From contig CAIZHO010000602.1 in assembly GCA_903932805.1 (NCBI GenBank), forward strand, positions 1 to 10,254: a stretch of 10,254 nt of DNA, given 5' to 3'. Positions 1,917 to 9,859 of the stretch are shown piece by piece. The notes under the pieces were generated by a model. That model saw nothing but the letters and a program-made list of their open reading frames with translations, was not told the origin of the DNA and did no database searches. The position numbers and the translations under genes are program-made. This stretch comes from an uncultured Roseiflexaceae bacterium (GTDB lineage Bacteria > Chloroflexota > Chloroflexia > Chloroflexales > Roseiflexaceae). The first letter of the stretch is position 1, and each line of letters begins with the position of its first letter.

Positions 1917-2735
1917 ATGCGGGTAGCAGCGTTTGCTTCGGGGAGCACAGGGAACGCAACGCTCATCACCACCCCCGATGGCGCATTGCTCTACGACGCA
2001 GGGCTCCCACAGCGAGCGATTGCTGCACAGTGCGCAAGCCTCGGTGTCGCAATGAGTGCCATACGTGGGGTTTTTGTGTCACATGAACACACCGATCACA
2101 CCACGAGCGCAGTCGCACTCGCCCGACGCTATCACATCCCGTTGATTGCAACTATGGGTACCCTACGCGCTCTCAATATCCCAGCAGAGGTCGAAACCAT
2201 CGTCTGTCGAGCAGGTGACATGCTTGCATTGGGTGCATTTTCGATTCTCCCGATCCGCGTGAGTCACGATGCCCAAGAACCGGTCGGTATGACCCTCCGC
2301 TACGCTGAACGGACCGTGTCAATCGCAACGGACTTAGGTGAGTGGGATAACACACTGCTCGATGCCTGTCGCGACGCCGAGCTCATCATCATCGAATCGA
2401 ATCACGAACGTGAACACCTGATGCAATGCGGGTACACTGCCGCACTCAAGCAACGCATCGCGAGTCGAACGGGTCATCTCGACAACGTACAAGCGGGTAC
2501 TTTTCTGGCGAATCTGGCTGCAGATGGCAAACAACGTACGGCATGGTTGGCACACCTGTCACAAGAAGCAAATACTGCCACGGTTGCACTCCGCAGTGTC
2601 TCAGCCGTCCTGAAGTTTCATCAGTGTGAAGCACAGTATCGATCGATTGTCGCCTTGCCACGTCAAAAAACCATTGTGTGGGGTGATGCACAACGAAGTT
2701 ATCAACTCGATATGTGGTCGCAAATCCAAGAATAG
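1917..2735 (+). CDS. walJ: WalJ/YycJ-type metallo-beta-lactamase-fold nuclease
   Basis: A 272-aa MBL-fold hydrolase. The N-terminal FASGSTGNATL matches the SLASGSSGN start of the YycJ/WalJ family. The metal motif is HEHTDH (56-61), with His117 in SHD, Asp139 in ATDLG, His163 in SNHE and His213 in LAHLSQEANT as further metal or family-specific positions. KQRI (178-181), GHLDN (186-190) and LSQEANT are signatures that separate this family from beta-lactamases and RNase Z. Characterised members are reported as 5'-3' exonucleases linked to DNA repair; in Firmicutes the gene lies by walRK, which is not seen here. No signal peptide, so cytosolic. Its Shine-Dalgarno AAGGGG (1906-1911) overlaps the stop codon of the upstream gene, implying translational coupling with the trans-sulfuration enzyme. 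Family assignment is confident; the biological role here is inferred. Confidence 0.9.
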   Translation: MRVAAFASGSTGNATLITTPDGALLYDAGLPQRAIAAQCASLGVAMSAIRGVFVSHEHTDHTTSAVALARRYHIPLIATMGTLRALNIPAEVETIVCRAGDMLALGAFSILPIRVSHDAQEPVGMTLRYAERTVSIATDLGEWDNTLLDACRDAELIIIESNHEREHLMQCGYTAALKQRIASRTGHLDNVQAGTFLANLAADGKQRTAWLAHLSQEANTATVALRSVSAVLKFHQCEAQYRSIVALPRQKTIVWGDAQRSYQLDMWSQIQE

Positions 2736-2748
2736 AACATTTGTTCTA
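2733..2748. promoter_or_regulatory. Putative LexA (SOS) operator
   Basis: TAGAACATTTGTTCTA is a perfect 6-bp inverted repeat around 4 bases. Its core is GAAC-N4-GTTC, the Gram-positive LexA operator (Bacillus consensus CGAACRNRYGTTYG). It begins at the walJ stop codon and lies just before a TATACT -10 element, covering the -35 and spacer region where a repressor would block RNA polymerase. The gene controlled would be the UvdE-like endonuclease, a fitting SOS target. LexA itself is not in the window. Confidence 0.75.
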
Positions 2749-2756
2749 ATTTGTAG

Positions 2757-2762
2757 TATACT
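2757..2762 (+). promoter_or_regulatory. -10 element for the uvdE-like gene
   Basis: TATACT lies 37 bp before the start codon and predicts transcription from about 2769. No clear -35 hexamer is visible; the position at 17-bp spacing falls inside the LexA-like palindrome. The promoter suggests that the uvdE-like and downstream genes can be expressed independently of walJ. Confidence 0.5.
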
Positions 2763-2798
2763 CCTCCCATCGAGCACGTAGCTTGTAATGGGGGGAAA

Positions 2799-3638
2799 AT
2801 GATTCGCTTCGGAGTCAGCACACACGACTATCGGCCGCGACAGACAACGATGTTATCGTTGCATGCGCTGCTATTGCACGCTGTTCACGAAGGGTTGGGT
2901 GTCTGCCGCATCCCCGCAGCATATATTGCGCCCCTCGCAGAGGCAAGCGCCCAACCGCTCCGCACCCTCGTGCAACAGTACGAACTTCGATTGGTGGTGC
3001 ACGCACCGATTGTTGCACCACATCGGCTCGAAGAATGGTTTGCGACGGTTATAGGGTTCTTTGCACAACTCGACGCTGCGGATGCAGTGATCATCTGCCA
3101 TCTGCCACATCTTCATCGTGCCGACCGCGCTCTGTTCGAACGGCTCCCTGCATGGATCGTGCATCACCTCGCTGTCGAACTAACACATCAGCCTGCTGCT
3201 GAACTAATCACCCAACTGTCTGAATATGGGGTTCCGGTGGTTTTCGACACCCTCCACTACGATAGCCAACTGCCGTGGCCGTACCATCCCATCGAGACGA
3301 TGTTTCTCTGCATGGCGAGCTGGCAGGGACGCAGGCCACTCATCCATCTCAGCACACAAGCAACCGAAGTGGGTGTCAGAAGCACACCCCCGCCGCGCGG
3401 GCAACACAGCGACGTACTTGCGCCGATGGCGGCTGTCTGGGTGGTACGGTCATTGATTGACGCGGGGCACAGCTCGGATATCGAAATCGAGGCAGACAGC
3501 GGAATCATCGCATATCGACACCTCAACGAAACACTCTCGCGCTACATCCCCGATCTTACGCCGTCAAGCACCCACAGGAGGAAGCATGCTCCAAACCCCG
3601 CACACCCTTTTGGCACTATTGAAGCGACCCCGCGATGA
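2799..3638 (+). CDS. Divergent UvdE-like TIM-barrel endonuclease
   Basis: A 279-aa protein whose motif order follows the UV damage endonuclease (UvdE/UVDE) family, which nicks DNA 5' of UV photoproducts and other lesions. Candidate metal ligands, in family order, are His68 (LVVHAP), His101 (IICHLP), Glu127 (AVEL), Asp150 and His153 (VVFDTLHY), His183 (LIHLS), His203 (GQHSD) and Glu231 (IEIEAD). LGVCRIPAAYIAP (33-45) corresponds to the GxRxSSxxxP segment. Two family features are missing. The lysine two residues before the HxS histidine, carboxylated in the Thermus enzyme, is Leu181. The Gln-Tyr damage-probing pair after the first histidine is replaced in VHAPIVAPH. Lesion range or activity may therefore differ. 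The last 28 residues are basic, low in structure, and encoded in DNA shared with the next gene. GGGGG ends 4 nt before the ATG. The upstream LexA-like box supports a damage-response role. Fold assignment is good; the exact activity is inferred. Confidence 0.75.
   Translation: MIRFGVSTHDYRPRQTTMLSLHALLLHAVHEGLGVCRIPAAYIAPLAEASAQPLRTLVQQYELRLVVHAPIVAPHRLEEWFATVIGFFAQLDAADAVIICHLPHLHRADRALFERLPAWIVHHLAVELTHQPAAELITQLSEYGVPVVFDTLHYDSQLPWPYHPIETMFLCMASWQGRRPLIHLSTQATEVGVRSTPPPRGQHSDVLAPMAAVWVVRSLIDAGHSSDIEIEADSGIIAYRHLNETLSRYIPDLTPSSTHRRKHAPNPAHPFGTIEATPR
3576..3581 (+). promoter_or_regulatory. Strong Shine-Dalgarno inside the uvdE-like coding region
   Basis: AGGAGG, the best ribosome-binding match in the window, lies 4 nt before the ATG at 3586 while the uvdE-like frame is still being read. 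It fixes the start of the 147-aa protein and implies that both proteins come from one message. Confidence 0.75.
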
Positions 3639-4029
3639 ACAACGGTTAGTCGACTCGTTGACCTACCACATCCCGCTCGCGCAAGCCAAACACTTCCATG
3701 GGACGCAAGAGATTGCGTTTTATGTGGGCAATTGGCATCCGCTGTCGCCGCATTGCGTGCGCTACCGCGCTACCATCGTTGATGCCGTCATTTGTGCACG
3801 CGCTGCGTACATCGTCGACGAACCCACCCATCCCCGTGCGGCTGAGCAGTATATGGTACTGACCGTCTGCGATCTCACCACGCTCGATCCACTCATCCCC
3901 AGTCAGCGTTGGCGCCGTATCACGCTCCACCGCATCAATACTGAAGTACTGCATCGTACACCCGAGCTCGGGCAGATCCAACGCATTGCACGGCGCATGC
4001 CAAGCACGACCGAACGCTGGGAGTGGTAG
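3586..4029 (+). CDS. Conserved-looking 147-aa protein of unknown function
   Basis: I do not recognise a named family. The protein is soluble, without signal peptide or membrane segment, and basic, rich in Arg and His. Features to search with are EIAFYVGNWHP (42-52), VRYRATIVDA (58-67), DEPTHPRA (78-85), IPSQRWRRITLHR (104-116) and an Arg-rich end. The DEPxHPRA followed by IPSxRWRRI arrangement reminds me of hypothetical proteins in Chloroflexota and Actinomycetota, from memory and not checked. The start at 3586 is chosen for the AGGAGG just upstream; the same frame is open from 3457, but that would lie deep in the uvdE-like gene. It overlaps that gene by 53 bp, so the two are probably co-translated and under the same LexA-like control. 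It ends 3 bp from the convergent hydrolase gene. A nucleic-acid-related role is a guess from context and charge. Confidence 0.75.
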   Translation: MLQTPHTLLALLKRPRDEQRLVDSLTYHIPLAQAKHFHGTQEIAFYVGNWHPLSPHCVRYRATIVDAVICARAAYIVDEPTHPRAAEQYMVLTVCDLTTLDPLIPSQRWRRITLHRINTEVLHRTPELGQIQRIARRMPSTTERWEW

Positions 4030-9520: not shown

Positions 9521-9859
9521 ATGAGCTACGCTGACAAGACACTGAATTGTCGCGATTGTGGTGAACCATTTGTATTCACCGCCGGCGAACAAGAATTCTA
9601 CGCCCAGAAGGGCTTCACCAACGAGCCAACTCGTTGTCTGCCATGCCGGCAGTCACGCAAGTCCCAGATGAATGGGCGCGGCGACAGCATGGGTGGCGGG
9701 TACCGCGATCGTTCCGCAAGCAGCGGACCCCGCGAACAATACGCAACCGTATGCGCAGGTTGTGGCAAAGAAGCAACTGTTCCATTCGTACCCCGCAATA
9801 ACAAGCCCGTTTACTGCGATGATTGCTTTCAGAATCAGCGCCGTGGATCACGCGCCTAG
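9521..9859 (+). CDS. Small double zinc-ribbon protein
   Basis: A 112-aa protein with two four-cysteine zinc sites. The first is Cys10, Cys13, Cys39 and Cys42, in a segment with EQEFYAQKGF (23-32) between the pairs. This is the pattern of the small probable zinc-ribbon family known from many environmental bacteria. The second is Cys78, Cys81, Cys99 and Cys102, in a CxxCGKEATVPFVPR block followed by KPVYCDDCF. A Gly/Ser/Arg-rich linker (51-72) joins them, and the C-terminus is basic. It has no enzyme motif. Nucleic-acid or protein binding is a plausible role, but no function is established that I know of. The start at 9521 is supported by GAGGAG upstream and by MSYADKTLNC, the typical beginning of this family. 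It is monocistronic, with a strong promoter and a terminator of its own, suggesting high or regulated expression. Confidence 0.85.
   Translation: MSYADKTLNCRDCGEPFVFTAGEQEFYAQKGFTNEPTRCLPCRQSRKSQMNGRGDSMGGGYRDRSASSGPREQYATVCAGCGKEATVPFVPRNNKPVYCDDCFQNQRRGSRA

Follow-up and report, generated by a model that had tools for sequence, protein, structure and literature searches.

UvdE is a single-protein alternative to nucleotide excision that incises DNA 5' of UV photoproducts; eight of its His, Glu and Asp positions are presumably metal ligands, Gln104-Tyr105 is taken here to be the lesion-probing pair of the canonical enzyme, and Lys229 of the Thermus thermophilus enzyme (UVDE) is assumed to be carboxylated. 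The LexA/SOS box GAAC-N4-GTTC is of the Gram-positive type. Both the enzyme family and the box are encountered in the DNA considered here (the window), a stretch of 10,254 nucleotides from an uncultured Roseiflexaceae bacterium of the Chloroflexota (assembly GCA_903932805.1, contig CAIZHO010000602.1), in which a gene for a UvdE-like endonuclease overlaps a gene for a protein of 147 amino acids (aa). The paralogue group to which the first gene belongs is called UvdE2 in this article, and the 147-aa protein and its family are called the partner. A study of UvdE (PMC10140301) presents it as a photoproduct endonuclease that acts as a backup to excision repair in Deinococcus, and describes three metagenome UvdE clusters as free of marked truncation; unlike these clusters, the UvdE2 group of the window has a loop deletion. 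Among the titles and abstract openings listed in a literature search, no work dealt with a UvdE pair or with UvdE under LexA in Chloroflexota.

The UvdE/UVDE/UvsE family (PF03851) is the closest described relative, and UvdE2 resembles it in keeping all eight metal ligands and in the match of a profile (A2, with two canonical sequences among its 20 rows) to UVDE of T. thermophilus (PDB 2j6v; E-value (E) 1.7e-42). It differs in lacking Gln104-Tyr105, in falling outside the canonical clade, in being paired with a second protein, in standing behind a LexA-type box and, in the genus of the window, in having Leu for Lys229. What is new is thus a UvdE paralogue group with all eight metal ligands but without the Gln-Tyr/Phe pair. 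The reading preferred here, to which we give somewhat less than an even chance, is that the pair may form an operon that is induced by DNA damage and encodes a split repair nuclease, UvdE2 cutting and the partner reading the lesion.

Linkage of UvdE2 and its partner

In the window, UvdE2 (279 aa) occupies positions 2799..3638 of the plus strand and the partner gene is an open reading frame with an ATG start at 3586..4029 of the same strand, encoding a member of an orphan family characterized by the motifs HPRA and RR. The first-pass annotation, made from the letters of the window, had the second gene starting inside the UvdE-like gene with a 53-bp overlap. Coordinates agree, the partner frame overlapping the 3' end of UvdE2 by 53 bases, as does a Shine-Dalgarno sequence, AGGAGG (3576..3581, plus strand), which lies within the UvdE2 frame and is found at the same place in genomes G019 and G024. 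Both genes are under purifying selection when compared with these two genomes, nonsynonymous divergence (dN) being 0.14-0.16 for the partner and 0.13 for the UvdE-like gene versus synonymous divergence (dS) of 1.0-1.2 and 1.05-1.18, respectively.

Distribution was followed in 82 genomes of the order, grouped into families f1 (that of the window, which includes Roseiflexus; 26 genomes), f2 (called Chloroflexaceae), f3 and f4. UvdE-like matches and partner matches are each present in 20 of the 26 f1 genomes. If the canonical UvdE of G007 is excluded and the partner of G002, detected by profile, is included, 19 f1 genomes hold both genes, which in all 19 are adjacent with UvdE2 first, amid changing neighbour genes. 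The same arrangement is seen in f3 (7/7) and f4 (5/5), giving 31 of 31 genomes holding both in these three families. Over the whole order, 66 genomes have both genes, four UvdE2 only, three the partner only (one at a contig edge) and nine neither, the last including G008, where a PF03851 piece of 114 aa lies at the edge of a contig, and G012, in which a partner match (E 9.3e-4) was missed by profile A3. The co-occurrence (Fisher p 5e-7) is overstated by this test because the genomes are related. Seven genomes (G006, G075-G079 and G081) have, besides the UvdE2 pair, a canonical UvdE that does not adjoin the partner. Evolutionary distances of UvdE2 and partner covary beyond what RecA and LexA account for (r 0.85, p 0.0002); control values given RecA were 0.20 (p 0.20) for UvdE2 with LexA and 0.45 (p 0.02) for the partner with LexA.

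Beyond the order, a sample of 400 genomes of the phylum, each at least 80% complete, contains the partner family in 94 and PF03851 in 62, and two further adjacent pairs, in G245 and G393. A scan of assembled contigs recovered 56 partner loci, of which 55 bear Chloroflexota names and one is labelled Gracilibacteria. UvdE lies beside the partner in six of the 56, L149 being one named contig with the pair, and thiamin pyrophosphokinase genes (10/56) and amidohydrolase genes (25/56) recur as clusters of which one member each was tested. A conserved pairing, as the first-pass annotation proposed, is therefore supported by the 31 adjacent cases in three families and the two genomes outside the order. 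Its stronger notion of an obligate neighbour is wrong, because f2 has both genes in 35 of 41 genomes and keeps them apart in 35/35; the partner family also occurs in Anaerolineae in another setting. Partner-family genes thus also occur independently of UvdE; pairing characterizes a single subfamily, and no f2 genome shows the operon. When an alternative small partner of UvdE2 was sought in f2, no common co-directional gene was found in the 7 of 18 loci with more than 1 kb downstream.

The nuclease: a metal site without the probe pair

The window protein has no Pfam match. Its best PDB match is the UVDE variant 3bzj (E 1.1e-4), with 2j6v at E 6.8e-4, and four paired orthologues match PF03851 above the cut-off (1.2e-12 to 1.1e-38), so that the membership in the UvdE family claimed at first pass is supported; PF03851 detects the UvdE2 gene in only one of 11 genomes of the genus of the window. 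Sequences were labelled canonical or UvdE2 from PF03851 score and pairing before their residues were read, and positions were assigned by reference to T. thermophilus UVDE (PDB number minus 21). The window residues H68, H101, E127, D150, H153, H183, H203 and E231 correspond to H101, H143, E175, D200, H203, H231, H244 and E269 of UVDE. All eight ligands are present in 64 of 64 UvdE2 proteins (18 from f1, 28 from f2, five from f3, six from f4 and seven from outside the order) as well as in all but one of the 22 canonical proteins that could be read. Gln104 together with Tyr or Phe105 is found in none of the 64 UvdE2 versus 21 of the 22 canonical proteins; exceptional UvdE2 residues at these positions are Gln with His in two proteins and an aromatic without Gln in three. 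The position of Lys229 (L181 in the window protein) is Leu in all eight proteins read from the genus of the window, as in 3bzj, and Lys or Glu in other UvdE2.

In the UvdE tree, the canonical copies (11 included) form a clade of their own (support 99/98) and the f2 UvdE2 another (100/100); branch order is not given by this tree because its root was placed at the midpoint. The UvdE2 of G020, split over two contigs, was left out of alignments, tree and residue table, and that of G042, whose frame is in two pieces, out of tree and table. Of 38 f2 UvdE2, 28 were read, and a canonical fragment from G077 stands outside the tree and the counts.

Probe loss was also surveyed outside the order, in each of the 27 sampled genomes that have a PF03851 match; these include G153 (Gln-Tyr, no partner), a genome not among the 22 canonical proteins. 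In a three-way split drawn after the residues had been seen, six genomes have lost both the 104 and 105 residues (G092, G200, G245, G393, G411 and G429) and all six have a partner-family gene, 17 keep Gln and the aromatic, three of them with a partner-family gene (G143, G164 and G439), and four keep the aromatic without Gln (G100, G108, G301 and the fragment G224). The aromatic is thus accompanied by a partner-family gene in three of 21 genomes.

The LexA-type operator

The first-pass annotation also reported a perfect GAAC-N4-GTTC palindrome at the promoter of the UvdE-like gene, and the sequence GAACATTTGTTC is indeed found there at 2735..2746, without assigned strand, as the sole perfect GAACN4GTTC of the window. 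At up to one mismatch the window has seven matches versus 3.8 expected from shuffles, so the loose motif alone carries little meaning. A -10-like hexamer, TATACT (2757..2762, plus strand), follows the box after 10 bases, the -35 position being covered by the box itself, and this layout is shared by G019, G024 and G025; a simple sigma-70 scan reported no promoter in the region of box and hexamer.

The genome to which the window belongs (2.79 Mb in 635 contigs) has one LexA-domain match and one RecA match. It contains 31 perfect boxes versus 20 occurrences of a reversed control pattern. Reading frames enclose 27 of the 31 (one, on contig C116, in a 318-aa frame), and the four others stand at recA, at UvdE2, at a UvrD-type helicase gene and in a gap by a MATE gene. 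The recA box is perfect and positioned behind TTGACA, lexA has two boxes with one mismatch each, and the identical 12-mer GAACATTTGTTC precedes the helicase gene, which is cut by the contig end (L019 1-128, contig C606) and identified by PF00580 (E 1.2e-8 on 33 residues). The window box is read as a LexA box because recA, lexA and the UvrD-type helicase gene of the same genome carry the same class, the UvdE2-partner pair in this respect resembling a member of a LexA/SOS regulon. The fourth non-frame box (L004 1501-1512, contig C39) lies between the MATE efflux gene, 230 bases off, and a short frame that begins 17 bases past it.

Within the family, the 330 bases that precede the Pfam match contain a box, perfect or with one mismatch, at 23 of 23 recA loci (four perfect, most others GAACN4GTGC) and at 13 of 21 lexA loci, or 14 counting a remote one in G014. 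The lexA genes of genera g8, g5, g9 and g2 show none at this threshold within 330 bases, the remote G014 site aside. A different box at recA or lexA, or a lack of conservation of the pair, was looked for as evidence against the first-pass proposal, and neither was found. UvdE2 itself has a perfect box within 150 bases of its start in seven of 19 family orthologues versus 0.05 expected from base shuffles (G000, G019, G024, G025, G018, G004 and G003, some of them close relatives, such as G019 and G024), and GCACN4GTTC is found at its promoter in G022 and G002. Perfect boxes before UvdE2 occur only in the genus of the window (g1), g3 and g4. At orthologous loci the palindrome recurs intact at these seven promoters of the family; other promoters have mismatched sites or a different operator, and in f3 and f4 the box is almost absent; LexA-type boxes at UvdE2 are lineage-bound.

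A second operator at UvdE2 promoters

Unlike the window, Roseiflexus (g8) and other genera show a different operator at UvdE2. Sites resembling ACACG-N4-CGTGT were found by eye around the -10 of UvdE2 in G009, G010 and G013 (g8) and in G001, G005, G006 and G015, and those tested have it at up to two mismatches in four of four cases versus 0.23 expected. Among the 38 UvdE2 promoters of f2, 12 have it when one mismatch is allowed (0.18 expected) and 21 when two are (2.1 expected). When HYACGNAANCGTGT was searched in seven genomes, there were 29 matches versus 32 for the reversed control, and since there is no genome-wide excess only placed sites count; these include UvdE2 in six of the seven genomes (G005, G009, G010, G044, G054 and G056). 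The palindrome also adjoins small genes of the XRE type (HTH_3) in G010 (L318) and G054 (L301).

That this palindrome might be a LexA box was considered and rejected, as recA of g8 keeps GAACN4GTGC while UvdE2 of g8 has the ACACG-N4-CGTGT-like sites; the comparison with recA was made in g8. Because the g8 recA box stays GAACN4GTGC, we take ACACG-N4-CGTGT to be the operator of another, putative regulator, for which the small XRE proteins of L301 and L318 are the leading candidates, and the repair gene UvdE2 seems to have switched regulator between related genera. Two copies about 70 bases apart occur in L299 (1501-1584), L318 (1501-1584) and L298 (1501-1585). These twin palindromes stand ahead of a small frame resembling a helix-turn-helix protein, and in L299 a short GC-rich inverted repeat lies between the copies; the interval perhaps holds an attenuator or a small RNA between two operators.

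The partner protein

The partner has an isoelectric point of 9.3 in the window and of 7.8-9.8 in four relatives, and its HPRA and RR motifs are invariant in 19 family members and nearly so in 76. The orphan family has at least 1742 relatives at E <=1e-3. The best PDB match is E 0.36 with profile A1, with none up to 10 for A4. Over 76 members the best Pfam match is to PIN, in one member (0.0079), and the best NCBIfam and PHROGs matches are 0.18 and 0.27, respectively. The guess of an ASCH/EVE/PUA-like fold found no significant match in PDB, Pfam, NCBIfam, PHROGs or PADLOC, and the description of the partner as a protein of no recognized family holds over the same five collections. The pairing with UvdE2 is a lead to function for this family.

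Partner-like proteins of Anaerolineae belong to the same orphan family (profile A3) and share the HPRA motif; they differ in forming a separate clade (28 rows, support 100/96), in their neighbourhood and in having no adjoining UvdE in 30 loci (L153-L182). In these loci the sister subfamily lies near an amidohydrolase-type gene (a cluster of 25, whose one tested member matches PF01979) and often near a gene for a pyridoxal phosphate (PLP)-dependent enzyme (a cluster of 21, whose one tested member matches PF00291).

Interpretation of the pair

The preferred reading, a damage-inducible operon for a split nuclease, builds on the operon layout, the box, the conservation, the intact metal site and the missing probe pair, and would extend these, from sequence, to LexA binding, induction, nicking, physical contact and a division of labour. 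It is also favoured by the co-occurrence of the two genes, by the partner-family gene in all six genomes outside the order that have lost both probe residues, by the separate clade of the canonical copies and by the covarying distances. LexA bound to the box at 2735-2746 would keep the promoter blocked, to be freed by RecA-dependent cleavage. UvdE2 would then act as a UvdE-fold endonuclease with a full metal site that nicks DNA without the canonical Gln-Tyr lesion-probing loop. The small basic partner may bind UvdE2 or the adjoining DNA and either read the DNA or complete the active groove, and the pair would nick at damage, whether from UV or another lesion. A wider and more doubtful proposal is that Chloroflexota possess a split UV-type endonuclease in which a separate small protein of a new family has taken over lesion probing from the UvdE loop, the two genes mostly being kept together or in the same genome. 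A natural UvdE branch with metals, without the probe and with an orphan protein would allow the separability of damage reading and cutting to be tested.

Several observations weigh against this reading. The genes are apart in f2, and no partner was detected in G043, G061, G065 and G080, which have UvdE2. Covariation of the two proteins arises mostly via one stem branch, the partial r being 0.69 inside the genus of the window (10 pairs) and 0.57 outside it (21 pairs). The four genomes outside the order that keep the aromatic without Gln have no partner-family gene, and the partner is therefore not associated with loss of Gln alone. At the level of regulation, the box is degenerate at UvdE2 in G021, G016 and G020, the f3 and f4 promoters of UvdE2 have neither operator except for one LexA-like site with one mismatch in G080, and the f2 partner promoters have ACACG-N4-CGTGT in 0/37 cases at up to one mismatch (0.19 expected) and 2/37 at up to two.

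The main rival, a quite conceivable one that we nevertheless rate below the split nuclease, is that UvdE2 alone is an SOS-induced endonuclease with a changed substrate (e.g., abasic sites or oxidized bases, as for other TIM-barrel relatives) and that the partner is a co-transcribed neighbour with a role of its own. An intact metal site in the absence of the probe pair would suit an independent enzyme, as would the separation of the partner family from UvdE in f2, the position of the Anaerolineae sister subfamily next to an amidohydrolase-type gene, and the lack of a shared operator where the genes are unlinked. This rival has difficulty with adjacency in 31 of 31 genomes of three families, kept amid changing surroundings in f1 and repeated outside the order, and with co-occurrence even where the genes are unlinked (35 of 41 f2 genomes).

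Under the split-nuclease reading UvdE2 cuts; that it is instead catalytically dead, with a role in binding or regulation, is improbable, since all metal ligands are retained in every one of the 64 proteins and dN is far under dS, even though UvdE2 evolves fast in the genus of the window, has Leu or Glu for Lys229 in 34 of 64 proteins and has a shortened N-terminus and loop. Slightly less probable still is a chromosomal defence module with the partner as reader of modified bases in foreign DNA and UvdE2 as the cutting enzyme. A small reader with a nuclease is a common layout in defence, and a C5-cytosine methyltransferase gene is likewise preceded by the ACACG-N4-CGTGT operator in two g8 genomes (G009 and G010; L317 and L309, PF00145 being tested for one). 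Against this, PADLOC matched 0/19 partner members at E <=1 (partner members only being scanned), no partner relatives were found in viral contigs, phages or plasmids, the pair is present in most genomes of the order, and its box is of LexA type. A chance box before a constitutive pair is very improbable: perfect palindromes are not rare per se, as the 20 reversed-control occurrences indicate, but the orthologous promoters far exceed expectation and the same class is found at recA, lexA and the UvrD-type gene.

Neighbouring genes

Upstream of the pair lies a gene of the metallo-beta-lactamase (MBL) fold (1917..2735, plus strand; Lactamase_B_2, E 2.2e-14), which we take to be WalJ/YycJ-like and regard as a neighbour outside the module. 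The last base of its stop codon is the first base of the LexA-type box. The first-pass view of a WalJ-type gene directly upstream applies to the genus of the window, with the box 3' of the MBL gene, and not to other genera, as judged by eye. Elsewhere in the window, positions 9521-9859 encode a protein of 112 aa whose two zinc-finger domains are of the treble-clef type (zf_Tbcl, 7.9e-24; zf_Tbcl_2, 1.5e-17).

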